From positions 1-31,726 of the IMG/VR virus record IMGVR_UViG_3300041409_001213: a stretch of 31,726 nt of DNA, one strand, 5' to 3'. Positions within the stretch are counted from its first letter, which is position 1. Each line of letters opens with the position of its first letter. A model generated the notes under the pieces. The model did no database searches and was not told where the DNA came from. It saw only the letters and a program-made list of their open reading frames with translations. Position numbers and translations under genes: made by a program. Positions 1,475-31,215 of this stretch are shown here, in pieces. The DNA is from a virus.

Positions 1475-2146
1475 CTACTGCGCGGCGGTTCCGATCACCG
1501 CCGCGCGCGGCAGGCACTCCCCGCGCGACCAGGCAACGAGACCGGAGCGGTCAGAGTGCGAGAGCGGCAACGACCAGCGGTTGACCGTACGGAGCATCCG
1601 AGTAGCCAGCGCGATGCGCGAGCCACGGAGCGTTGGGCACCAGTCCCCTGGGCCGCGGTCGGATTTCTGTCGGTTCGATTCCGCTGTGGTGATCGCGAGG
1701 TTGTCGACGTCGTTGAAGAACCGTACGAACTCCGAGCACGCCGCGGCGTGCTTGGCGCGCGAGCACGGCCGGCCCTGGCGGTCTCGCCACACCCGAGACC
1801 GCCACGCCGTCGCCGCCGGGTACTCGTGATCGATCTGCCAGCCTGTGCCGAGGCGGAGCTCCCGCTCGCCGCTGTAGGCGTCCTTGCAGACCGCAACCAA
1901 CACCGTGCGGCGGTTCGGAGCCCAGGCCCGCACCACGCACCGCTTCGCCAAGATCTCGGCCCGGGTGTCCAAGCCGTCGCCGTGGATCTCTCCGGAACCC
2001 CAGGCCGGGCGCTCCCAGGGGATCGGGGAGGACGTGCGCGCCGAGGCCGGATCGGCGCAGGCGACTTGCCACAGAGCTGCACTCCAGACCGTAACCAGCA
2101 CCGCGACGATCCAGACCGGAGGCGTGGATGTGGTCGGCGGCCTCAT
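1475..2146 (-). CDS. Secreted HNH endonuclease-like protein
   Basis: This 223-aa protein starts with an ATG overlapping the methyltransferase stop by 4 bp. Residues 11-29 form a hydrophobic segment (VWIVAVLVTVWSAALW) followed by ACADPASA, which fits a signal peptide; an uncleaved anchor is possible. The mature part matches the secreted HNH/DUF1524-type nuclease pattern. IDHEYP (105-110) supplies the Asp-His pair, TAWRS follows at 113-117, FFNDVDNL (143-150) supplies the conserved Asn-Asp and Asn-Leu, and SNRQKSDRGPGDW (157-169) gives the Asn-Arg-x-Lys-x-Asp signature. Such enzymes cut DNA with a single divalent metal. With a signal peptide it would act in the periplasm or outside. Periplasmic destruction of superinfecting phage DNA and nutrient scavenging are possible roles, both inferred. 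Confidence 0.8.
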   Translation of the reverse strand: MRPPTTSTPPVWIVAVLVTVWSAALWQVACADPASARTSSPIPWERPAWGSGEIHGDGLDTRAEILAKRCVVRAWAPNRRTVLVAVCKDAYSGERELRLGTGWQIDHEYPAATAWRSRVWRDRQGRPCSRAKHAAACSEFVRFFNDVDNLAITTAESNRQKSDRGPGDWCPTLRGSRIALATRMLRTVNRWSLPLSHSDRSGLVAWSRGECLPRAAVIGTAAQ

Positions 2147-3852
2147 GCGACCTCCTCGAGCGCTTCTTCCGCACAGTCGGCGAGGTTCGCAGCGACCAGC
2201 GCGCGAGCGACGTCGGGAGCGACCGAGTTGCCGATCAAGCGGACCTTGGCGGCCTTGCTCTTCGCAGCGGTCAGGTTGTAGGTGCTAGCGAAAGCTCCGA
2301 ACTGTGCGGCGAGCAGCTCGTGCGGCTGGAGCATCCGCATCCCTACGTCGACGATTTGATAGTCAACACCTTCGACCGTCACGAGCCCGAGGCGCGCTTT
2401 CGCCGTGATCGTCCGAGCAGGTTCGAGGAGATCCTGTCCGCCCGTGCCGTCCTCGCCGTAGTAGGCAGTCAAGAATGCGCGCACCTCGCCGACGTGGAAT
2501 CCGCTGGCGGTGATCGTCGGCGCCGGTTCGTCGAGCGAGGAGCCCACGCAATCGCCCCGGAGCTTGACCAGGTGCGCGGCGGCGAGAGCAGTCTTTCCAC
2601 CCCCGCCAGGCATAACGGTAGGCGTCGGCTCGGCGAGGCATGATCCGATCCCTTTCCCGAATTGGCGCGAGAGGTGGGCCACCGAAAGCGCGTGCGATCG
2701 CCGAGCCGCGCAAATCGTTGTCAGGGGCTCGACTACCCCTTCTACGCGCGCCTCATCCCTACCGTGATTGACCTGCAGGAGGTGCGGCGCGTCCAGCTGA
2801 AAACGGTTGTGCTGGGTCGTCACAACGCCGAGGGGCTCATCTACTGAGCGCGGGGCGTTCGCGTGATTCATTTCGACGAGGGAAGGAATGACCAGCCCCC
2901 GGTCGCCCTTGGCCGTGATCGTTCCGAGCGGCACGCCCAGCGACGTCGCCGGAGATAGACCCGAACGCCCGCCCACGCCTACGAGCGTGGGAACGCAGAG
3001 ACCGAGCGCGTGTCCAGCTCCGGCGGGGCGCGAGCCGTTGCCGGCAGTTACAGTTGGCAACGGCTCGTGGCTGTCGGCGGAGTGAGCGTTACCGCGGAAC
3101 TTGACGATGAACGGCCGCGGATTTTCGAGCACAAATCGTTTGATGCCTCGAAAGATCCGCCAGAGCGTTTTCGGCGCGAGCGGTCGCTTCCGCGAGAAGA
3201 TCGAGGGACAGTCGATCGACCAGTCAATGCACTCCGCCGCTGTCCGCAGCGGAAAGGCACCCGGGCCGTGCGTCGGTTCCGGCCATTCGATCGGGCGCCC
3301 GTCGCATCGGGCCACGATGAACAGCCGCCGCCGCCGGGTCGGCGCTCCGAACCGCGAGGCGTCGAGGACCCGGTACTCGACCGCGTAGCCAAGCTTTTCG
3401 AGACGGGCCAGCCACCGCCGAAACGTTTCGCCCATCCGGGCTTTGTCGGGGCGGCCGTCCGCCGACAGCGGCCCCCAGCCCCGAAACTCCGAGACGTTCT
3501 CGACGATGATGACGCGGGGCCGGACTTCTGCCGCCCACCTGGTCACCACCCAGGCCAGGGACCGGATGTTCTGGAGCCGAGGAGTTCCACCCTTCGCCAC
3601 GCTGAAGTGGGTGCAGTCCGGACTCGCCCAAAGTAGTTCAACGGGCCGCCCCCCTGTCGCTTGCCGCGGGCGGACTTCCCAGATGTCCGCGTCGAGGTGG
3701 CGTGTGGCGGGATGGTTGGCACGGTGAACGGCCAAAGCGGTGGTGTCATGGTTGATCGCCAGATCAACCGCGCGGCCGAGAGCGGCCTCGATTCCTGTGC
3801 TCGCCCCACCACCCCCGGCGAACAAGTCCACAACGAGACCTGCCGCGCTCAT
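2143..3852 (-). CDS. DNA (cytosine-5) methyltransferase with internal repeats
   Basis: This 569-aa enzyme should transfer a methyl group from S-adenosylmethionine to C5 of cytosine in a specific site. Motif I is DLFAGGGGASTG (9-20), the motif IV loop is SPDCTHFS with the expected catalytic Cys80 (PDC instead of the usual PPC), motif VI is ENV (118-120), and motif VIII is the Arg cluster TRRRRL (172-177). C-terminal motifs IX/X are RMLQPHELLAAQFG (506-519) and IGNSVAP (540-546). The 'SPDC' variant is common in phage-borne members. Between about 260 and 485 lie seven repeats of an EPxxTITA box spaced 32-44 residues apart, in the target-recognition position. The start ATG overlaps the stop of the 49-aa gene. 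No restriction partner is visible, so it is probably a solitary self-protecting methylase. Confidence 0.95.
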   Translation of the reverse strand: MSAAGLVVDLFAGGGGASTGIEAALGRAVDLAINHDTTALAVHRANHPATRHLDADIWEVRPRQATGGRPVELLWASPDCTHFSVAKGGTPRLQNIRSLAWVVTRWAAEVRPRVIIVENVSEFRGWGPLSADGRPDKARMGETFRRWLARLEKLGYAVEYRVLDASRFGAPTRRRRLFIVARCDGRPIEWPEPTHGPGAFPLRTAAECIDWSIDCPSIFSRKRPLAPKTLWRIFRGIKRFVLENPRPFIVKFRGNAHSADSHEPLPTVTAGNGSRPAGAGHALGLCVPTLVGVGGRSGLSPATSLGVPLGTITAKGDRGLVIPSLVEMNHANAPRSVDEPLGVVTTQHNRFQLDAPHLLQVNHGRDEARVEGVVEPLTTICAARRSHALSVAHLSRQFGKGIGSCLAEPTPTVMPGGGGKTALAAAHLVKLRGDCVGSSLDEPAPTITASGFHVGEVRAFLTAYYGEDGTGGQDLLEPARTITAKARLGLVTVEGVDYQIVDVGMRMLQPHELLAAQFGAFASTYNLTAAKSKAAKVRLIGNSVAPDVARALVAANLADCAEEALEEVA

Positions 3853-4907: not shown

Positions 4908-5149
4908 AGGTTGCTCACGGCGGCCGAATTTGCCGGCCGGAGGAGAAGAGAACGGCGAGCCGGAGGAGGACTCGCCGCGCCTCCAGAGTCGGGAACCGGC
5001 CACCCGCTCGCGCTTCGTGACCAGCCGATCTCTACCTCCCCGTCAGAGGTGGTGGTCATTCGGAAACCCAACAGGCCTTGCCGAACGTCCATCCTGTACA
5101 GGTGGCCCAGGGTGAAGGTGACCGGAGGACGGTTCGCCGGGCCGCTCAT
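4904..5149 (-). CDS. Hypothetical protein (81 aa)
   Basis: The start ATG at 5147-5149 overlaps the TGA of the Cro-like gene, and the stop overlaps the ATG of the zinc-ribbon gene, each by 4 bp. Residues 10-50 look like a small beta-rich module (VTFTLGHLYRMDVRQGLLGF then TTTSDGEVEIGW). The remainder is Ser/Pro/Arg-rich and probably disordered. Its first residues (MSGPA) resemble the start of the following gene (MSGPS). I do not recognise a family. The overlap pattern supports the gene more than the protein sequence does. Confidence 0.55.
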   Translation of the reverse strand: MSGPANRPPVTFTLGHLYRMDVRQGLLGFRMTTTSDGEVEIGWSRSASGWPVPDSGGAASPPPARRSLLLRPANSAAVSNL

Positions 5150-5472
5150 GAGGCAGCAGCTCTCACTTCGATTGGTAAGCCGGGCTTTTTTCGAGACGGC
5201 CGCCGTGGACGAGCGGCGGCGGTGCGATTTCGGAGCGTCGGTCGCGGATTGCACCGAACACGACGGAGATCACTGTCGAAGTGCTCCGGCCGGATGCCCA
5301 GAACCTCCAAAATTCGAGTGCGGAGACAGGCGGAAGGCCTTCCGACTCCCGATGCGAGCTTCGACATGTACGAGGGGGAGATCCCTAATTCATTCGCCAG
5401 CGCATTGGAGGCCTTCTCCCGGAGCCGATCGCAGAGTTCCTGCTGCCCTTTGGACATTGTGCGCGTTGCCAT
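5146..5472 (-). CDS. XRE-family Cro-like transcriptional regulator
   Basis: This 108-aa DNA-binding protein has a helix-turn-helix at about residues 22-47, ANELGISPSYMSKLASGVGR, the usual 'A-x-x-x-G-[IV]-S-x-x-x-[IV]-S-x-[IL]' XRE pattern. The C-terminal 40 residues are Arg/Pro-rich and look disordered. It is the first gene of the leftward early operon, divergent from the repressor-like gene at 5564, which is the position of cro in lambdoid phages. No Shine-Dalgarno is seen in front of the ATG at 5470-5472. The predicted transcription start falls next to the ATG, so the message may be leaderless. Its expected role is to turn down the opposing repressor promoter; this is inferred from position. 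Confidence 0.8.
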   Translation of the reverse strand: MATRTMSKGQQELCDRLREKASNALANELGISPSYMSKLASGVGRPSACLRTRILEVLGIRPEHFDSDLRRVRCNPRPTLRNRTAAARPRRPSRKKPGLPIEVRAAAS

Positions 5473-5479
5473 GCGCTAA

Positions 5480-5508
5480 AGACTACAGAGACAATGCTCT
5501 CTTGTCAA
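5480..5508 (-). promoter_or_regulatory. Leftward early promoter (PL/PR-like)
   Basis: On the minus strand a perfect TTGACA box (5508-5503) is followed after 17 bp by TAGTCT (5485-5480), a weak -10. The predicted start is near 5473, adjacent to the ATG at 5472. Transcription would produce the whole early operon down to position 1. Confidence 0.6.
5487..5502. promoter_or_regulatory. Candidate operator palindrome inside leftward promoter
   Basis: AGAGA (5487-5491) and TCTCT (5498-5502) form a 16-bp inverted repeat with a 6-bp centre. It lies exactly between the -35 and -10 of the leftward promoter, where a bound repressor would block polymerase. A second inverted repeat, TGTCAAC (5503-5509) with GTTGACA (5525-5531), is formed by the two divergent -35 boxes. 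Confidence 0.45.
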
Positions 5509-5525
5509 CATTCTCGCGCGGCAAG

Positions 5526-5555
5526 TTGACATCCTGGAAACAAATGCGCTTAAAT
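5526..5555 (+). promoter_or_regulatory. Rightward repressor promoter (PRM-like)
   Basis: A perfect TTGACA (5526-5531) is followed after 18 bp by TTAAAT (5550-5555). The expected transcription start is about 5561-5563, immediately before the ATG at 5564. That implies a leaderless message, as is known for lambda cI from its maintenance promoter. Confidence 0.6.
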
Positions 5556-5563
5556 TGCCTGCA

Positions 5564-6016
5564 ATGAACGCTTTCGCGCATCTCCACGAGGCGCTATCTG
5601 CGCTCCGCGCTCAAACCGGCTTGCCGTCGAAGGTTGTGGCGAAGCGCGCTGGCCTACACGCATCCTTGGTCAGCGGCTACATGACAGGGCGCTCGGTCCC
5701 TAGCCTTTTGAGTCTCGGGAAGCTGCTTGATGCTATGGGCAAGACAGTCTCTGACCTCGGCGCGGAGCTGGAATCTCCACCAGCAGAGAAGGTCGAGACT
5801 GTTGCGGCCGACGAGACACCACCGAGCACTGAGGCCGAATTGGACCGCTTGGGCGCCGAGTTCGGCACTGGCCTATTGAGGGTGCTGCGCGATGCTGGGG
5901 TAGTAAGCTTGGGGCCAAGCCCGCATCTTCAGAAGAACGTAGTTGCCGCGATTGACCGGGTGCTCGGACCGCCAGCCGCGGAAGAGGGCGACGCGCAGAA
6001 GAAGGGTAAGCGGTGA
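5564..6016 (+). CDS. XRE-family repressor-like regulator
   Basis: The ATG at 5564 is preferred over an upstream TTG at 5555, because that TTG overlaps the predicted -10 box. The 150-aa product has an N-terminal helix-turn-helix domain (about 1-60). The recognition region VVAKRAGLHASLVSGYMTGR is followed by a SLGKLLDAMGKTVSDL helix typical of XRE/CI-like domains. An acidic, Pro-rich linker follows, then a C-terminal helical segment (about 90-140), with no LexA-type Ser-Lys peptidase motif. It therefore lacks an obvious self-cleavage module, and some other protein would have to relieve repression. The gene downstream, a TPR protein, starts within its stop codon and is the natural candidate partner. 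It is divergent from the Cro-like gene. Confidence 0.8.
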   Translation: MNAFAHLHEALSALRAQTGLPSKVVAKRAGLHASLVSGYMTGRSVPSLLSLGKLLDAMGKTVSDLGAELESPPAEKVETVAADETPPSTEAELDRLGAEFGTGLLRVLRDAGVVSLGPSPHLQKNVVAAIDRVLGPPAAEEGDAQKKGKR

Positions 6017-7194
6017 GGCAGGGCCGAGCCGGCGCTGCGTCGCGCGCAGAAAACTGCGAACGCCTCCTGTTGTTCGCGAATGCAGCGCGGACCTCAGATG
6101 TTCACCAGGCACGCGCCTATGCACACCGAGCAGTACTCCTAGCCGATGCCAGCTCGCTGGGCCGATCCGCGCAGGACACTGAAGATCTCCGGGCGCGAGC
6201 GCACGGCTCGCTTGGGAATGTTTTGCGAATCGCGGGAGACCTATCAGGGGCGACCGAACAACTGGAGATCGCTGAAAGGCACGCAATTGTTGGAGGGAGT
6301 TCTTTCGCGGCCACGCGCTCACTCGTGGCTTCGTTCAAAGGCTCCCTTGCGCATGCTCGCCATGACTATCGCGGCGCGATCCACGAATTCGCCAGCGCCT
6401 TCCGAATTCGCAAGCTTGAGGGCGATCACGTCGCGGCCGCAGCGGAACTTCGCCAGATTGGGAGCGTTCTACAGTCCGGCGGCCAAGCAAAGCTGGCCGC
6501 AGCAGTGTTCGAATCTGCCCTCGCAGGAGCGACCACAGCCTTCGAATTAGCAGTTGTGCTTCAAAATTTAGCATCAGCCCTTACTGACTGTGGCGATTTT
6601 GCCGGTGCCATTGATGCGATCTTATCAATAGTCTCAAAGCCGGCCCTCCTGGAAGCGCTGGGTCCGTTGGGCCTGATCCGCTTGAGTTGGGTGAAGGGAC
6701 GTCTGGCCGCGTCTACAGGCGCAACCACTGGTGCCCGCGAGATCATGCATCAGGCCAGATCAGCGTTCGTTGAACACGGCCTCTATCGAGACGCAGCCCT
6801 AGTCACCGTGGATCTTGCCGCAGTTGAGCACCTCGCTGGAAGCCCTATAGCCTGCCGGAGAGAATGTCTCAAGGCCGACCGTCTCCTCTTCGGAACCGGT
6901 TTGGCGAAGGCTGGATTTGCCGTCTTCATACTTCGCCAGATGTCGGAACGCCAAATTGTCGGGGCGGCTTTTCTGGCTGCGGTTTCCGGTGAAGCTGCGC
7001 GCCAAATACGGCCGGGAGCCGGTCATGCGCCCCCGGCGCGACCTGCGTTACGGGTTACAGCGGCCGTTGCCGTCGATGTTGCACCCCTCCTCATCCATCG
7101 GCGGAAGGGGCCGCCGTTGATCGGCGATGCTGAGGGCGCGGAAAATCCAGGCGAGCAGGAACATAACTTACCTCCAACGACCGCCCGGCCATAG
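6013..7194 (+). CDS. Tetratricopeptide-repeat (TPR) protein coupled to the repressor
   Basis: A GTG start (6013-6015) overlaps the TGA of the repressor gene, so translation is probably coupled. The 393-aa product is a helical repeat protein. Clear TPR-like units are LRARAHGSLGNVLRIAGDLS (about 60-80), ASFKGSLAHARHDYRGAIHE (about 108-127), AAELRQIGSVLQSGGQAKLA (about 142-161) and LQNLASALTDCGDFAGAID (about 185-203), with weaker ones to about 330. The sequence type recalls TPR proteins I associate with Acidobacteriota that are often fused to or paired with HTH domains. TPR superhelices bind peptides or proteins, as in Rap/Rgg/arbitrium receptors, so a sensor that modulates the repressor is plausible. 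The last ~60 residues are not TPR-like and lie antisense to the peptide ORF at 7048-7164. Confidence 0.8.
   Translation: MRQGRAGAASRAENCERLLLFANAARTSDVHQARAYAHRAVLLADASSLGRSAQDTEDLRARAHGSLGNVLRIAGDLSGATEQLEIAERHAIVGGSSFAATRSLVASFKGSLAHARHDYRGAIHEFASAFRIRKLEGDHVAAAAELRQIGSVLQSGGQAKLAAAVFESALAGATTAFELAVVLQNLASALTDCGDFAGAIDAILSIVSKPALLEALGPLGLIRLSWVKGRLAASTGATTGAREIMHQARSAFVEHGLYRDAALVTVDLAAVEHLAGSPIACRRECLKADRLLFGTGLAKAGFAVFILRQMSERQIVGAAFLAAVSGEAARQIRPGAGHAPPARPALRVTAAVAVDVAPLLIHRRKGPPLIGDAEGAENPGEQEHNLPPTTARP
7048..7164 (-). CDS. 38-aa hydrophobic-start peptide with strong RBS
   Basis: This minus-strand ORF has a perfect GGAGG (7175-7171) six bases before ATG 7164-7162, and ends with TAA at 7050-7048. 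The product starts MFLLAWIFRALSIADQ, a short membrane-seeking or signal-like segment. It continues with a polar segment rich in Pro and acidic residues and finishes EEGCNIDGNGRCNP, with two cysteines bracketing an IDGNG turn. It is convergent with and overlaps the 3' end of the TPR gene. Its arrangement, a small exportable-looking peptide next to a TPR regulator, resembles peptide pheromone systems. No homology was tested, and the ORF could be fortuitous, but the ribosome binding site is among the best in the window. Confidence 0.55.
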   Translation of the reverse strand: MFLLAWIFRALSIADQRRPLPPMDEEGCNIDGNGRCNP

Positions 7195-7195
7195 C

Positions 7196-7216
7196 GGTGC
7201 GCCGCCACGGCGCACC
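7196..7216. promoter_or_regulatory. Perfect GC-rich hairpin between TPR stop and peptide leader
   Basis: GGTGCGCCG (7196-7204) and CGGCGCACC (7208-7216) are exact reverse complements with a 3-nt loop. The stem begins one base after the TPR stop codon. There is no T-run on either side, so it is not a standard intrinsic terminator. In the opposite direction it sits about 20 nt upstream of the peptide's ribosome binding site, where it could control that message. It may serve as a transcript end for the TPR gene. Confidence 0.6.
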
Positions 7217-7248
7217 GGGCGAGCGGCGGTATCAGTACAGTGCGACCG

Positions 7249-7315: not shown

Positions 7316-7846
7316 GTGCGAGTTCTTGCCATCGCCGCCGCTTCGATGCTGCTGACCGCGGCGACCCCTCCCGAAGTGCAGCTCTCACCGAGAGGGGTCT
7401 GGATGCGCGATCGCGACAAAACCGAGACCACGTTCAACGTCCCGGCGGACAAAGGCGATCAGGCTTGGTCGCGGGCGAAAGCGTGGATCGTGCGGTGCAG
7501 CGACTTCAGACTCCAAACGATCGACACAGAGCTGCTAGAAACCTACAACCCTCCAGACGAACGAAAAGTGAGAATGGCGTTCAGTCTATCCCGAGAGCAG
7601 CTAGGCGGCGGGGTCTGGCGCTTCGCCGTTAGAGCGTACAGCGGCAACCCCTGTGCCGATCGACTGGTGAAGGAAGCGGCTCAGGATCTCGCGCTTTACG
7701 TTCAGACCGGCGTGGACTGCCCCGAGTGCCCCTGCGGAAAGGGAGGAGGGGAGAACAACATATGGAACAGTTTAGATGAATCGGACAGAACCCTAGCGGA
7801 ATTGAGTTATTGGCCCGAAGATCCACCAGGACAGCGCTGCCACTAG
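7316..7846 (+). CDS. Predicted secreted protein, accessory gene
   Basis: This 176-aa protein starts at GTG 7316, ten bases after GGAGG. Residues 1-17 (MRVLAIAAASMLLTAAT) form a signal peptide, so the product is probably periplasmic or secreted. The mature part has a central alpha/beta-like stretch (TFNVPADKGDQAWSRAKAWI near 42-61, then a Cys). It ends in a cysteine cluster (CPECPC near residue 140) and a final Cys-His. The early part superficially resembles small lipoprotein-like domains of the 'two-strand plus helix' type, but I cannot name a family. It lies in the plus-strand island with the repressor side of the switch, the place for lysogenic-conversion genes, so expression in the lysogen is likely. 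Confidence 0.65.
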   Translation: MRVLAIAAASMLLTAATPPEVQLSPRGVWMRDRDKTETTFNVPADKGDQAWSRAKAWIVRCSDFRLQTIDTELLETYNPPDERKVRMAFSLSREQLGGGVWRFAVRAYSGNPCADRLVKEAAQDLALYVQTGVDCPECPCGKGGGENNIWNSLDESDRTLAELSYWPEDPPGQRCH

Positions 7847-7887: not shown

Positions 7888-8169
7888 ATGAAAAGGTGTC
7901 CGCAGTGTGCTGAGGAAATTCAAGACGCGGCGGTGATTTGCCGGTTTTGTCGGAGTGGCATTGCTCCACCAGCCGGCGCCAGATCGCCGAATGGCCGCAC
8001 TGGCTCTAGGTTGGCGATATGGCTGATTATCCTTGGTGTTGCGGCGATCGGCGCCCTAGGTCTGCACAAATACAACCTCAGGGTAAGGGCCGAGTACGCG
8101 AAACAGCAGGAAGAGATGGGCGAATCCTCGGAAGTCAGAGACTGGATTCACAAGCTTAGGTCTCGATGA
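7888..8169 (+). CDS. Zinc-ribbon membrane protein (93 aa)
   Basis: A GGAGG lies ten bases before the ATG. Residues 4-23, CPQCAEEIQDAAVICRFCRS, form a short zinc ribbon (CxxC...CxxC) of the kind found at the start of many small bacterial membrane proteins. A Pro/Gly/Arg linker follows, then one transmembrane helix (LAIWLIILGVAAIGALGL, about 49-66) and a charged C-terminus. Orientation is probably zinc ribbon inside. Small single-span prophage proteins of this shape can act in superinfection exclusion, but nothing in the sequence proves that here. It is the last plus-strand gene, converging on the late operon end, and with the secreted protein at 7316 makes a two-gene accessory island. Confidence 0.75.
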   Translation: MKRCPQCAEEIQDAAVICRFCRSGIAPPAGARSPNGRTGSRLAIWLIILGVAAIGALGLHKYNLRVRAEYAKQQEEMGESSEVRDWIHKLRSR

Positions 8170-8201: not shown

Positions 8202-8477
8202 CTACGCCCCCGTGGTCACGTAGAGCGCAGCCACTTCGCAAACCTCCACCGCCAGCTCGCGGACTTCGTCCCATGAATCCAGAAAGGCCCGCGTGTCTTG
8301 GGCGCGCTTCTCCGTCGTAAGCTCAAACGTCTCTCGATTGGGTGCGTGCTCTTCACCGGGCCAAGCCCGTCGCCAGGTGTAATCGTGAAACCTCCATGCC
8401 CAGAGCCGGCCGATCGACAGACCGATCAGCGGATGCGCCACCGCATGGTGGATGACCTTCCAAGCAAGCTTCGTCAC
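8202..8477 (-). CDS. Small phage protein with AHPL...RFHDYT motif
   Basis: The frame is open far upstream, but the true start is the GTG at 8475-8477. It overlaps the TGA of the DUF5675-like gene and sits five bases after GGAGG. The 91-aa product begins with a hydrophobic helix (LAWKVIHHAVAHPLIGL) containing AHPL (14-17), then RFHDYT (29-34). This is the motif pair seen in the protein at 1078-1404, although the rest of the two proteins differs. The remainder is a charged helical region. It is the last gene of the leftward late operon. A role in the membrane or in lysis is possible given its position next to the holin-like and DUF5675 genes, but this is unproven. Confidence 0.75.
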   Translation of the reverse strand: MTKLAWKVIHHAVAHPLIGLSIGRLWAWRFHDYTWRRAWPGEEHAPNRETFELTTEKRAQDTRAFLDSWDEVRELAVEVCEVAALYVTTGA

Positions 8478-8947
8478 GGCATCCTCCCTTCTCGCAATCC
8501 TTCGTAGATCCGAGCCATCTCGGCGCCCGCCGGCTCCTCGGTGATGTCGAGCCAAACCTTGCCCGATTTCGCGGCGGTTTGAAGGCGCGGCAGCAGCGTC
8601 GCCAGGGCGGACCGAGAGTTCACAACCCGGTCGATCGCCAGCGCCTGGCCGACCAGGATACAGCCCTCGGTGTCGACGGACGCGTTGCCGGCGTGAATCC
8701 GGATGCCCTCGAAACTCGGCACCCGCAACAGGAGCGGCAGGACGCACCCGAAGCGCGCGCTCCACGAGAGCACCACCTCGTACTTGCCGGCACTGATCGC
8801 TGTCGCGCCCGGGACCTTGACTCCGGCCGGCCGGATGCGGTCCTCCAGAGTGTAGACCCCGCCCGGAACGTCCGGCAGGTAAAGTCGTCCGATCGTCGAC
8901 GTAGCCGAGAACTGGAACCGCGTGAGTCGAAATCTCGTATCGCTCAT
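8474..8947 (-). CDS. DUF5675 family protein
   Basis: This 157-aa protein matches the DUF5675 pattern in order: FSATSTIGRLYL (13-24), VYTLEDRIRP (31-40), KVPGATAISAGKYEV (44-58), then VPSFEGIRIHAGN (76-88) followed by DTEGCILVG (92-100). The 'GIRIH-x-GN ... D-x-x-GC-[IL]-[LV]-VG' core includes a His and a Cys arranged like those of L,D-transpeptidase (YkuD-like) folds. A peptidoglycan-related role is therefore suspected for the family, without proof that I know of. Its place at the end of the late operon near small membrane proteins fits a lysis or cell-wall role. It overlaps both neighbours by 4 bp. No signal peptide is present, so export would rely on a holin. Confidence 0.85.
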   Translation of the reverse strand: MSDTRFRLTRFQFSATSTIGRLYLPDVPGGVYTLEDRIRPAGVKVPGATAISAGKYEVVLSWSARFGCVLPLLLRVPSFEGIRIHAGNASVDTEGCILVGQALAIDRVVNSRSALATLLPRLQTAAKSGKVWLDITEEPAGAEMARIYEGLREGRMP

Positions 8948-10059
8948 GAGACCGTGGCTCCGGCGAGCTCGTAGACCTGCGCGCCCTCGGGGAGGCTGAG
9001 AATCACCGTCGAGCCGTCGGCCGCGCAGAAGATCCGCTCCCCCTCGCGGCGCGTGAACCCTTTCGAGGCGCCGTCCTTCCGCCAGACCTGAGGCCTCGCG
9101 AGCGTGGTGTCACCCTCCGAGTTGCGCCCCACCGCCAGCACGTGAGGCTTGAAGGTCGACCAGCCGGCCGACACCCAGGAGAGGATCTCGTTCGCGCCGC
9201 GCGCGATCGTGAGCGTCCCCCAAGGCTTATAAGCTCCGAGAACTCGCAGCGCCACGTCGCCGAGGCGCTCCTCCCCCTGCATGCCGGCGAGCGACTCGGC
9301 GTCCGCGTCCGGCAGTCCGAAGAACGTCGAGACGTTTGGCGCGCCGTACGGCCGGCCGAGCGCCAGCTCGATCACTCGGAGCGGCCAGTCACCTTGGGTG
9401 CTCACCTGGTCATCGCGCCACTTGCCCAGGCGCGTCCACCGGCCGGCGCCGAAGACGCCCCACGAGAGCGCCGCCGAAAAGCGAGGTGTGTAGTCGGCGT
9501 TCTGCCGCGGAGGCGGAAGCGTCGAGTAGAGACCCGAGTAAAACGGATGGCCGATCCCGCGGGCGATCGTCGCGTAGTCGATCCCGCCGCGGCCGTCGTT
9601 GCTGCACTCGACCACCGAGCGCTGCGGCCACGGGGCCGCCGACAGGGCGAAGAGAGCGCACTGCGCCGCCAGGTTCTCGCCCAGAGCGCGGCACACCGGA
9701 TGGTCGATCGACCGCGCCCGGGCGAGCGCCCAGACCTTCGCCGCCACCACGTCGGCGCCGTACCCCCAGCTGCCGCCCTCCACGCCACCGAGGCCGGTTC
9801 GTTGCTCGTGCGAGATCGCGCGGGCGAGCCAATCGAAGTCGTCGAGCGCCGCGGCGGCCACCCAGGGCCAGTTGCCGCTGCCGGCGTTCTCCGCCAGGTG
9901 ATCGGGGTTCCCGCGGTGTGGAGCGAGCACGGCCGGATCCGCCTTGCCGCCCGCGGCGCGGAGGCACAGTTGGCGGCGGCAGATCTCGCGGGGCTCACCG
10001 GGGGACACCGCGGCGAATCCGCGGAGCAGGGCGGCGCGATCGATTTTCGGCAAGGGCAT
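8944..10059 (-). CDS. Hypothetical late protein (371 aa)
   Basis: The ATG at 10057-10059 is the only sensible start, though the Shine-Dalgarno is weak. Residues 40-170 are helical and Trp/Ala-rich, with repeated 'W...A.A' spacing (GNWPWVAAAALDDFDWLARA, then VVAAKVWALARARSIDHPV). That would suit an alpha/alpha-barrel or other helical enzyme fold. The C-terminal third (about 270-371) is beta-rich and ends in a jelly-roll-like series of short strands. I recognise no catalytic signature. Located between the holin-like genes and DUF5675, it could be a lytic enzyme or a tail-associated depolymerase; both are guesses. A 66-bp gap follows the upstream gene, larger than is usual here, so it may have its own start signal. 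Confidence 0.65.
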   Translation of the reverse strand: MPLPKIDRAALLRGFAAVSPGEPREICRRQLCLRAAGGKADPAVLAPHRGNPDHLAENAGSGNWPWVAAAALDDFDWLARAISHEQRTGLGGVEGGSWGYGADVVAAKVWALARARSIDHPVCRALGENLAAQCALFALSAAPWPQRSVVECSNDGRGGIDYATIARGIGHPFYSGLYSTLPPPRQNADYTPRFSAALSWGVFGAGRWTRLGKWRDDQVSTQGDWPLRVIELALGRPYGAPNVSTFFGLPDADAESLAGMQGEERLGDVALRVLGAYKPWGTLTIARGANEILSWVSAGWSTFKPHVLAVGRNSEGDTTLARPQVWRKDGASKGFTRREGERIFCAADGSTVILSLPEGAQVYELAGATVS

Positions 10060-10658: not shown

Positions 10659-10889
10659 TCAGTCCTCAGCAACCACAGGGAGAGACCGACGGTACCGGCG
10701 AGGCGGCGGCAGAGGATGACGCGGCCGAGCCCATGCGGCGGACGCTCCCGCGATCTGGAGCAGGAGCGCGCCAACGGCTTGCGGCGTTCCGCCGTGCGAC
10801 CAGGTGGGCCAGCCCACCATTTGCCCGGCCGCGACCGCGAGCAGCGAGGCAATCAACCAGAGAATCTCTTTGCCCTGGACTCTCGACAT
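10659..10889 (-). CDS. Two-segment small membrane protein, holin-like
   Basis: The ATG at 10887-10889 shares its G... TGATG junction with the stop of the 31-aa gene. The 76-aa product has two hydrophobic stretches, ILWLIASLLAVAAGQMVGW (about 9-27) and AVGALLLQIAGASAAW (about 38-53), and a very basic Arg/Pro tail. Two spans plus a charged tail in under 100 residues, placed after the tail genes and before DUF5675, fit a holin that opens the inner membrane at lysis. Holins share little sequence, so this rests on topology and position only. Confidence 0.55.
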   Translation of the reverse strand: MSRVQGKEILWLIASLLAVAAGQMVGWPTWSHGGTPQAVGALLLQIAGASAAWARPRHPLPPPRRYRRSLPVVAED

Positions 10890-10984
10890 CAGCGGCCCCG
10901 AAGGTGTCGAAGCCGGTCGACGACGAGATAGCCCGCGACCCCCACCGAGGCGATCCCGATCAACAACCACACGATGTGACTCAT
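10889..10984 (-). CDS. 31-aa single-span membrane peptide
   Basis: The ATG at 10982-10984 overlaps the TGA of the upstream virion gene by 4 bp, six bases after GGGAGG, and the stop abuts the next gene. The product is essentially one transmembrane helix (IVWLLIGIASVGVAGYLVV) with a basic tail (DRLRHLRGR). It could be an antiholin, a holin partner or a spanin-like accessory. The strong ribosome binding site and exact overlaps support a real gene. Confidence 0.6.
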   Translation of the reverse strand: MSHIVWLLIGIASVGVAGYLVVDRLRHLRGR

Positions 10985-27728: not shown

Positions 27729-29515
27729 GAGGACTCCTCGCCGACCTGGGCAGCCAGGTCGCGCAGTTGATCGAGCAGCAGTTCAGCACCCGGAGGGGCC
27801 TCGCCGCGCGACGACAGGGTTTCAAGTAGCGCCGGCAGATCCCCGCCGGCAACGTTGTGGGCTTCGATCTCGCTCCGGATGGAAGCGATTCGCAGGGAGA
27901 CGCTTCTCTCGACCATCGCCCGGACGAACGTCTCGATCGAACCCTCGTCGAGTTCCACGCCTTTGAGATCCGCAACGGCGCGGCAAGCGGACCGCGCGGC
28001 CGCGAGGGCTACGTCCGCAGTGATTCGCACAGCGCGCGGCTCCATGTCCCCATAGGTGGGTAGGATCGCCAGAAGAGCGGACGGCACGTCAGCTGCAGCG
28101 CGGGCGCGACCGGCCAGCTCGCCCCGGAGGCGGCGATTCCAGCGCGCCCACTCGCCGGTCAATAGAGGCTCGTGAGCATCGATCATCCGCCGGGCCAGAA
28201 GAGCGCCGCGCGCCGAAGCCACCGCGCGAGGGGTAGAGCCGGAGGCCGCTCCGATTCCCTTTGCCGCCAGCTCGGCCGGCACCATGTTCAGAGGAACGAG
28301 GTAGAGATCGCCGCCCTTGTCTGCGCCGATGGGGTTTAGGTCCAAGATCGAGCGGATATCGTCCGCCGAGAGCCAGCCGTTGTTCCGGCCGAGAGCGAGC
28401 GCATCAGCTTGGGCTTTGAATTCGCCGCGTAATAGGCCGGCCACGTTGTGCTTGACATAGTAGGTACCCTTCTCCCCCTCGCTGAATAGCTTACGGTTCA
28501 TCTCCTGCTCGATGCGCACAAGCCAGGGCGACAGGCTGTAGACGACAAACTCCAGGGACATCTGTTCTATGTTCGAAAACGTCGCCCGTTCAAGGTCCGC
28601 GAGCATGTGCGGCGGAACCCGAAAGATCCGCGCAATCTCGCTGATTTGGAACCGCCGCGACTCCAAGAACTGCGCGTCATCCGGATTGATGGTGTTTGCT
28701 TCGAACTCTAGACCCTCTTCGAGCAGACCGAGTCGGAAAGCATTTCGCGGTCCCTGGTGCCTCGCCTCGATCGATTCGCGGAGTCGCTTCCGTGCTTCTG
28801 GGCTCAGCTGGGCAGGATGCTTTAGCCAGCCACCGGCGAACGAGGCGTTACCAAAGAAGGAGGAGCCGAAAGCTTGAAGCGAGAGACCGAGCGCAACCGC
28901 TTCTCGGTGCAGCCCGATCGGTGATAGCCCCTTGAGTCCACGCATCCGCGGACCGGGAACGTGGATCATGTCCTCGGCTGCGATCGTGGCCGGAGATGGA
29001 CGAATGGACGAACTCGACGCCGACACCGAGTAGACGATCCGGCCGCCCTCTCGGCGCGGAGTAACGCGCACCGGTTCAATCGGCCAAAGGTGCTTCGGGC
29101 GACCGGCGCCGTCTCGCTCGATCTCGGCATACCCGTTGCCGTTGAGGTTGAGCGCGAACATCAGCATTCCGCGGAAGTCGATCGAGGAATTCTCGGGGTT
29201 CGGCTCGTCGTGCAGTAGCCGATAGGAGCGGTGGTCGAATGCCTCCTCCGCCCCGAGCCTTCCGTTGATCTTCGCGCGGCGAAAGACCTTAAAAGGAAGC
29301 TGGCTTTCACTCTCTGCCAGGACTCGGACCGCGCTGAAAACTGCCGCGTACGTGAGAGCGTTGTCTTCCGTAACGGCAATTCCGCTCGGACTCTCCGGCT
29401 CTCCGAATAACCGCTCGACTGAGGTCGAAGGATCGGATGCGTCGAAGTTCCCGAGCACCATGGCTCGACTGAAAAACTCGACGATTCGATGTCCGAATTC
29501 TTTCAGGAAAGCCAT
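27725..29515 (-). CDS. Phage portal protein, HK97-type, extended C-terminus
   Basis: The 596-aa product carries the usual portal core: EDNALTYAAVFSAVRVLAES (about 50-69), then the FRGMLMFALNLNGNGYAEI region, the DMIHVPG motif, and EIARIFRVPPHMLADLERAT (about 292-311), which is the hallmark segment of Phage_portal (HK97 gp3-like) proteins. The core ends around 415. The last ~175 residues are an extra Ala/Arg-rich helical region that HK97-type portals of about 400 aa lack; it could be a head-interior domain or an additional assembly module. The portal makes a dodecameric ring for packaging and tail attachment. It overlaps the terminase gene by 13 bp. Confidence 0.95.
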   Translation of the reverse strand: MAFLKEFGHRIVEFFSRAMVLGNFDASDPSTSVERLFGEPESPSGIAVTEDNALTYAAVFSAVRVLAESESQLPFKVFRRAKINGRLGAEEAFDHRSYRLLHDEPNPENSSIDFRGMLMFALNLNGNGYAEIERDGAGRPKHLWPIEPVRVTPRREGGRIVYSVSASSSSIRPSPATIAAEDMIHVPGPRMRGLKGLSPIGLHREAVALGLSLQAFGSSFFGNASFAGGWLKHPAQLSPEARKRLRESIEARHQGPRNAFRLGLLEEGLEFEANTINPDDAQFLESRRFQISEIARIFRVPPHMLADLERATFSNIEQMSLEFVVYSLSPWLVRIEQEMNRKLFSEGEKGTYYVKHNVAGLLRGEFKAQADALALGRNNGWLSADDIRSILDLNPIGADKGGDLYLVPLNMVPAELAAKGIGAASGSTPRAVASARGALLARRMIDAHEPLLTGEWARWNRRLRGELAGRARAAADVPSALLAILPTYGDMEPRAVRITADVALAAARSACRAVADLKGVELDEGSIETFVRAMVERSVSLRIASIRSEIEAHNVAGGDLPALLETLSSRGEAPPGAELLLDQLRDLAAQVGEESS

Positions 29516-31215
29516 TCGATCCCCCGCTCTTCGTAAACTGAGATCGTGCTCGCCGGCAGTTGGTGAGTGACGGCACGGCCGAAGCCCATGATCGACGCGA
29601 CCACGCCGTCGATCCTTCCCGTCGATCTGTGCTTTGCCGGCTTCGGGTTACCCGCGGCGTCGAGCTGCACCGCTGTGTTAGCGATCATCCACCTGAGGAC
29701 CGGATCGTCTTCGTGAGACAACCGACCAGAGAGCACGGCCGTCTCGAAATCACGCGTTGGCCCAGCCATCGATACGAAGCCCTGGCCATGCTCAAACACG
29801 GTGAACCCGTCGCTCATCAAGTCGGCTATCAACTGATGGGCGTTAAATCGGTCCGCAGCAATTTCATCGATCTGAACGACGCTCAAGAGATCGAGGATGT
29901 CCGCACGGATCACGTCGTGATCGATGATCGTTCCCTCGGTCGCTTTGACCCTGCGGTCGCGTACCCAGGCATCGTAAGGAGCACCGTCCCGCTTCACTCT
30001 CGCACTGACGTTTTCGGCCGGGATCCAGTATCGACAGAACAGCGAGACGCCCATCTCTCCGTCAATCGGCGGAAAGGCCAGCGCGAGCGCGGCAATGTCC
30101 ACCCTCGACGCAAGGTCGATCCCAGCGAAGCAAACGCGGCCGCGAAAGTCTTCAAGTGTTCGACCGTCCGGATCTACGCAGGCATCCCAAGCGTCCAGCG
30201 GTAGCCAGCGAGCCGCCGATTCGGTCCACTGGTTCAAACGGAGGCGGCGGACTACGCTCTCCTCGGAGGGAAGCGAGCGAGCCTTTTCGACCTGGGTCCG
30301 CAAGTCGTCCAGGTTCACCGAAACTCCGAGGTTCGGGTTTGCCTGGGGCCAATTCGCCTCGTCGATCCAGGACGCCTCGTCGTCGAGTTCCCAGATCGCG
30401 GCAAAATAGGTGTCGTCTGTAGTCGTCCCGTTCAGAATCGAGCTACAGTACGAGTACTCTCGATAGCAGACGCTGTGCCGGTCGTAGCCGGCGGTGGTCG
30501 TGGCGAACACGAGAGGCTGCCGCCGACTGCCCACGGCCGTCGAGAGAAGGTCGTAGACCATCGGCGACGAGTGAGCATGGAGCTCGTCGACGTTCGCCCC
30601 GTGCGGGTTCAGGCCGTCGAGCGTCTTGTAGTCGCTCGCCAGCGGCTCGAACTTCGAGCTGGTACGAGGGTCGTTGAGATTATTCTTCGGGTTGGCCAGC
30701 CGGCCCCTCAAGGACGGCGACTGACGAACCATCCGCTCGGCCTCGCCGAACACGAGTAGCGCCTGCTCTTTTTTCGTCGCCGCGGCGAATACGTGCGCTC
30801 CCGGCTCGCCATCGCCGAGCATCAGGTAAAGGGAGATCGCCGCGGCGAGCGTGCTTTTCCCGTTCTTGCGGGCGACGGAAATGTACGCGCGGCGAAATCG
30901 CCGCGCCCCCGTGTGGTCGATCCAGCCGAAAAGGTTAGCGACCACAAACCTCTGCCACGGCTCCAGGAGCAGCGGGGCGCCGGCCCACTCGCCCAAACTG
31001 TGGCAGCAGAACCGCTCGATGAAACTGATGGCGTGCAGTGCTCGGCTGGCGTCGAAGTGGTAACGGCTCTTACTCGGCTGGGTCCCCCATCGCTCCAAGT
31101 CCGAGAGGAAACGCGCGCTCGCTTGGCGAATCAGCTTGCCGGCGTTGATCGCTTCCGCGGCGACCGCCCGCGCGTAGTCTTCGCCGGGAAGGCCTGAGGG
31201 ACGGCGCTTAGCCAC
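29503..31215 (-). CDS. Terminase large subunit (TerL)
   Basis: The 570-aa motor-nuclease of DNA packaging shows an ATPase part with Walker A VARKNGKST (114-122), Walker B region ANVDELHAH (207-215) and the coupling motif TTTAGYD (239-245). The C-terminal RNase H-like nuclease part has GIDLAS with Asp367, IAADRFNA with Asp455 and GRIDGVVA with Asp536, the expected metal-binding acids. It pumps the concatemeric genome into the prohead and cuts it. It begins at a GTG eight bases into the end of the small subunit gene, so translation is coupled, and it has the typical length for HK97/lambdoid-type terminases. Confidence 0.97.
   Translation of the reverse strand: MAKRRPSGLPGEDYARAVAAEAINAGKLIRQASARFLSDLERWGTQPSKSRYHFDASRALHAISFIERFCCHSLGEWAGAPLLLEPWQRFVVANLFGWIDHTGARRFRRAYISVARKNGKSTLAAAISLYLMLGDGEPGAHVFAAATKKEQALLVFGEAERMVRQSPSLRGRLANPKNNLNDPRTSSKFEPLASDYKTLDGLNPHGANVDELHAHSSPMVYDLLSTAVGSRRQPLVFATTTAGYDRHSVCYREYSYCSSILNGTTTDDTYFAAIWELDDEASWIDEANWPQANPNLGVSVNLDDLRTQVEKARSLPSEESVVRRLRLNQWTESAARWLPLDAWDACVDPDGRTLEDFRGRVCFAGIDLASRVDIAALALAFPPIDGEMGVSLFCRYWIPAENVSARVKRDGAPYDAWVRDRRVKATEGTIIDHDVIRADILDLLSVVQIDEIAADRFNAHQLIADLMSDGFTVFEHGQGFVSMAGPTRDFETAVLSGRLSHEDDPVLRWMIANTAVQLDAAGNPKPAKHRSTGRIDGVVASIMGFGRAVTHQLPASTISVYEERGIEWLS

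Follow-up and report, generated by a model that had tools for sequence, protein, structure and literature searches.

How does the phage represented here decide between lysogeny and lytic growth, and does a small peptide take part in the decision? The window (the whole stretch of DNA that was analysed) is 31,726 bases long and about 65% GC. The earlier note on this DNA had proposed a lysogeny switch with peptide sensing, composed of a repressor, a coupled TPR protein and a 38-aa peptide encoded on the opposite strand. Our best reading, to which we assign a probability of about 50%, is a CI/Cro-like switch in which a TPR modulator is translated together with the repressor.

The structural genes lie on the minus strand of the window. 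Among them is:

29503-31215, minus strand: large terminase

The portal, protease, capsid and a 1782-codon tape measure were assigned from translations and capsid matches. Nothing in IMG/VR or in the one-per-species genomes is more than about 40–50% identical to the major capsid protein over its length, and hence no close relative is at hand. The best genome matches of the capsid protein are to MAGs labelled Elusimicrobia, Clostridiales/Bacillota and Treponema. No integrase is seen in the 31.7-kb fragment, and temperance is therefore something we infer; since the contig is open at both ends, an integrase could sit outside the fragment. Searches of the window returned no Rfam family and no tRNA. 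We give roughly even odds to the reading that the fragment comes from a temperate siphovirus whose lysogeny is controlled from the region described next.

The central part of the proposed switch consists of two genes and the gap between them:

5149-5472, minus strand: divergent HTH gene, 108 aa, Cro- or second-repressor-like (PHROG 1468, weak Pfam HTH)
5473-5563: predicted divergent promoter/operator region, 91 bp, with back-to-back TTGACA boxes
5564-6016, plus strand: CI-like repressor, 150 aa, with an XRE/HTH_31 N-terminus (Pfam HTH_31 and HTH_3; PHROG 1373)

The repressor ORF begins at ATG 5564 (alternative TTG 5555) and stops at 6014-6016. Its product matches HTH_31 (1.3e-7), HTH_3 (2.3e-6) and PHROG 1373, a transcriptional regulator (3.4e-6). 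The earlier note had described a repressor-like HTH gene without a self-cleavage domain, and this is borne out: Pfam finds only the DNA-binding domain in the 150-aa protein, and no S24 or other self-cleavage or peptidase domain. Absent from that note was the second HTH gene (5472-5149). Its 108-aa product matches PHROG 1468, a transcriptional repressor (2.9e-5), and its Pfam matches (HTH_31 at 0.003, HTH_3 at 0.0054) are both below the cut-offs. The codon score of this minus-strand gene is poor, which we count against the model.

Each direction of the 91-bp gap has one perfect TTGACA box (5526-5531 on the plus strand, 5508-5503 on the minus strand). The motif occurs only three times on both strands of the whole window, and two of the three fall in this gap. 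On the plus strand, the promoter candidate TTGACA-N18-TTAAAT ends 8 nt before ATG 5564, so the repressor message would be leaderless. The lambda cI message from PRM is leaderless. Judged by gene order, two divergent HTH genes around a shared, short promoter/operator gap have the layout of a CI/Cro-type switch, and the likeness would extend to the leaderless repressor promoter. CI/Cro-type switches differ in two respects, since the repressor here is without a self-cleavage domain and a TPR protein is coupled to it. The divergent HTH pair and the -35 boxes support a lysogeny switch independently of any peptide. This part of the original proposal is thus strengthened, also by the coupled TPR gene; the peptide sensing, to which we return below, finds no support of its own.

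The TPR gene and its surroundings are as follows:

6013-7194, plus strand: TPR-repeat protein ORF, 393 aa (TPR_12), of which about 6013-6990 is probably truly coding
7195-7217: perfect inverted repeat, 10-bp arms and 3-nt loop, directly after the TPR stop codon

The ORF starts with GTG at 6013 and overlaps the repressor stop codon as GTGA, in agreement with the shared stop codon noted earlier. The arrangement makes it plausible that the repressor and the TPR protein are translationally coupled. The single Pfam match in the ORF, TPR_12, is weak (2.2e-4, below the Pfam cut-off; 4.5e-7 in a single-genome search), and this weak assignment, like the missing homologues and the missing integrase, counts against the model. 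The predicted structure is all-helical with low confidence; made without homologues, the predictions were not good enough to search for related folds.

The last 65 or so codons of the ORF (6991-7191) look non-coding. Their codon log-odds of -0.26 lie below those of every other gene tested, and the true TPR protein may therefore end or shift frame near 6990. Codon statistics fall around position 6985, and over 6940-7029 the +1 frame scores better; a frameshift or an assembly error around 6940-7194 is possible. Three inverted repeats with 10-bp arms of the kind seen at 7195-7217 occur in the window, against 0.25 expected. The one at 7195-7217 has no T run on either side and could be a transcription end without a T run, or an operator.

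A rival explanation is that the phage carries the HTH-TPR pair as a regulatory or cargo cassette of host origin, and that its lysogeny switch is not this pair. HTH-TPR gene pairs are common in some Acidobacteria, which we counted in favour of this idea. In addition, GC3 and codon scores are lower than those of the structural genes, suggesting a separate origin, and neither the HTH protein nor the TPR protein was found in the related phages searched. The divergent HTH gene and the divergent consensus -35 boxes, in contrast, form the classic layout of a switch, and we consider the cassette explanation doubtful. No clear defence-system match was found for either protein. Downstream on the TPR strand follow two genes that are possibly lysogenic cargo:

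7316-7846, plus strand: next gene, 176 aa, signal peptide apparent by eye (PHROG 16082, unknown function, 1.1e-6)
7888-8169, plus strand: small protein with zinc ribbon and transmembrane segment, 93 aa (PHROG 8032, 3.3e-7)

The 93-aa protein also matches UPF0547 (2.4e-4, below the cut-off).

Relatives of the TPR protein were sought widely. Exact eight-residue patterns (a search of low sensitivity) picked up none in viral or genome contigs, tblastn found none in phages or plasmids, and the records of related phages gave none. Whole genomes from the phyla of the four MAGs linked to the phage as hosts through the capsid protein (about 800 genomes) yielded only generic TPR proteins. NCBIfam (E<=0.1) gave no match to an RRNPP receptor (Rap, Rgg, NprR, PlcR, PrgX or AimR); the four weak matches among PDB chains (E<=1) were unrelated, with no RRNPP receptor and no AimR among them; and phage genomes (E<=1) gave neither.

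Several candidates were set aside. Matches in Haliscomenobacter, in L104/L105 (phylum of the Elusimicrobia MAG) and in L118-L121 (phylum of the Treponema MAG) are generic TPR or long repeat proteins, and L104/L105, on inspection, have no HTH partner. Weak TPR_12 matches occur in two related phage records, G001 and G033; the ORF in G001 looks unrelated on inspection. A motif pattern for TPR relatives retrieved only terminases and unrelated ORFs, and an Acidobacteria-like consensus of the TPR C-terminus found no match when used as a query.

What, then, of the peptide? The candidate is

7048-7164, minus strand: 38-aa ORF that overlaps the 3' end of the TPR ORF in antisense, with GGAGG 6 nt before its ATG

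and its product is MFLLAWIFRALSIADQRRPLPPMDEEGCNIDGNGRCNP. The ORF and its GGAGG are present as first reported, at 7164-7048; the earlier start of 7175 includes the ribosome site. The ribosome site alone is unremarkable, since about two such ORFs are expected per window: related viral DNA that is GC-rich has about 1.8 ATG ORFs of 20–60 aa preceded by GGAGG in every 31.7 kb, Markov simulations give 2.4, and the window has two. A 31-aa ORF at 10889-10984 on the minus strand, MSHIVWLLIGIASVGVAGYLVVDRLRHLRGR, near lysis-like genes, also has GGAGG; with this site and its single hydrophobic span it is a good candidate for a small membrane protein. A strong ribosome site combined with a start as hydrophobic as that of the 38-aa ORF is rare. 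None of 17 GGAGG-preceded small ORFs in 294 kb of natural GC-rich sequence has one, and the combination occurs 0.017 times per simulated window, a figure to be read with the fact that the hydrophobic-start criterion was chosen after the 38-aa ORF had been seen. The codon log-odds of the peptide frame is +0.29, like the real genes of the window; among open antisense windows of 38 codons that lie in true genes, about 10% reach this score, which places it near the 90th percentile. Taken together, these intrinsic features give the peptide weak to moderate support.

That the ORF lies antisense to the TPR 3' end is true of the annotated ORF. Because the TPR tail is possibly non-coding, the overlap may not be real and may have arisen by accident, from a long tail that happens to stay open.

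The 38-aa ORF could be a real small protein expressed by lytic transcription of the minus strand, acting inside the cell as an anti-repressor or as a membrane peptide and not as a signal. The minus strand is indeed the lytic-gene strand of the window, the ribosome site and hydrophobic start would suit such a protein, and the codon score is near that of the structural genes. There is also precedent in TF-smORF prophage induction modules, where small phage proteins encoded beside regulators can inactivate repressors (PMC10432266). In those modules the transcription factor activates the small gene, whereas no such link is visible here (PMC10432266). The nearest lytic-strand gene (8202) is about 1 kb away with two plus-strand genes in between, no minus-strand promoter for the ORF and no homologues were found, and the codon evidence is not decisive. 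We regard this possibility as unlikely.

In the peptide-sensing proposal, the 38-aa protein would be exported and processed and then taken up again by the cell, and the TPR protein, once it has bound the peptide, would alter repressor activity. RRNPP systems have a TPR receptor of 250–500 aa and a propeptide of 10–100 aa (21–50 aa in validated cases) that is usually Sec-exported, SHP and PrgQ being exceptions, with the two genes -60 to 400 bp apart (PMC10075063). The sizes agree: the TPR ORF has 393 aa, or about 326 without its tail, and the 38-aa ORF has a propeptide's length and a strong ribosome site. Receptor similarity does not, and the TPR domain itself is a single weak TPR_12 match below the cut-off. 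By eye the peptide's N-terminus is not a normal Sec signal, with no positive residue ahead of a hydrophobic stretch of 7 residues and an Arg at 9, and export is doubtful. With the TPR ORF at its annotated length, all 117 nt of the peptide ORF lie inside it, which is outside the spacing rule; the pair would fall within the rule if the TPR protein ends near 6990.

Nor were relatives of the peptide found. Searches of phages and plasmids gave none, nothing comparable was found in 341 genomes from the phylum of the Elusimicrobia MAG, and the motifs GCxID(x)NGxC and GCxIDPNG occur in viral contigs only in unrelated frames or proteins. One match to the TPR tail (L089), considered as a sign of antisense-peptide conservation, sits in a helicase-like gene and is due to chance. 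Phages, plasmids, viral contigs and about 800 genomes yielded no relative of the TPR protein or of the peptide that could mark a conserved receptor-propeptide pair. This absence is weak evidence, as the genomes are those of the phyla around four host MAGs, and other GC-rich phyla might hold relatives.

Known systems offer partial parallels and show that the novelty originally claimed for the arrangement was overstated. SHP ORFs lie opposite rgg2 and rgg3 (PMC3150281), and there, like here, a small hydrophobic peptide ORF is found near the receptor gene on the other strand. Unlike here, Rgg combines the HTH and repeat domains in one protein and SHPs have 22–23 aa; the ORF in our window sits inside the TPR ORF, and the sequences searched contained no relatives of it. 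Separate proteins are known as well. In pLS20, the repressor Rco, the TPR anti-repressor Rap and a peptide are distinct, and Rap acts directly on the HTH repressor Rco (PMC7430634). This resembles the separate HTH and TPR proteins here and is the precedent we count for the model. Yet pLS20 is a Bacillus plasmid whose switch controls conjugation through an RRNPP receptor and a 44-aa secreted Phr precursor, whereas our TPR protein has no RRNPP similarity and its gene overlaps that of the repressor. The arbitrium system of SPbeta phages (AimR-AimP-AimX) also places a TPR protein in lysogeny control, with a short ORF of similar size if ours is real. AimR binds DNA itself, while here AimR is not matched, no aimX was identified and the peptide is on the other strand.

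Despite the opposite-strand precedent, the propeptide-like size and the rare combination of ribosome site and hydrophobic start, the missing relatives and receptor matches, the N-terminus and the nested position make peptide sensing quite improbable. The specific form in which a peptide antisense to its own receptor gene controls a separate, co-translated repressor in a high-GC, probably non-Bacillota host is very improbable. If it were true, it would place phage peptide communication outside the Gram-positive RRNPP world.

We therefore return to the CI/Cro-like switch with a TPR modulator. In this model the divergent HTH regulators would flank the 91-bp promoter/operator gap as cI and cro do, and the plus-strand HTH protein, which has only a DNA-binding domain, would repress the lytic genes. 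The co-translated TPR protein would most likely bind the repressor or its complex and, responding to a host protein or small ligand, set how active the repressor is; the interaction and its trigger are what we infer. TPR-mediated control would then replace RecA-driven cleavage as the trigger of induction. The 38-aa ORF is dispensable for the model and may be spurious or an unrelated small protein. We count in favour the HTH domains encoded to either side of the gap, the missing peptidase domain, the back-to-back TTGACA boxes, the GTGA overlap and the late structural genes, all of which are on the opposite strand. Should a non-cleavable repressor indeed be tuned by the TPR protein, prophages of a little-studied group would have a route to induction that does not depend on DNA damage; were the peptide part also true, phage-phage peptide signalling would extend beyond Bacillota.

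Elsewhere in the window, a DUF5675 protein (1.8e-26) is encoded in a lysis-like position at 8474-8947 on the minus strand, adjoining a gene for a 371-aa protein without a match (8944-10059). A gene at 2143-3852 on the minus strand encodes a DNA cytosine methyltransferase, which shares about 48% identity with enzymes that Brevibacillus and Paenibacillus carry on plasmids. The contig starts (1-113) inside a 27-bp tandem repeat of 4.2 copies within an ORF (GASSATGDR repeats), where the assembly probably stopped.
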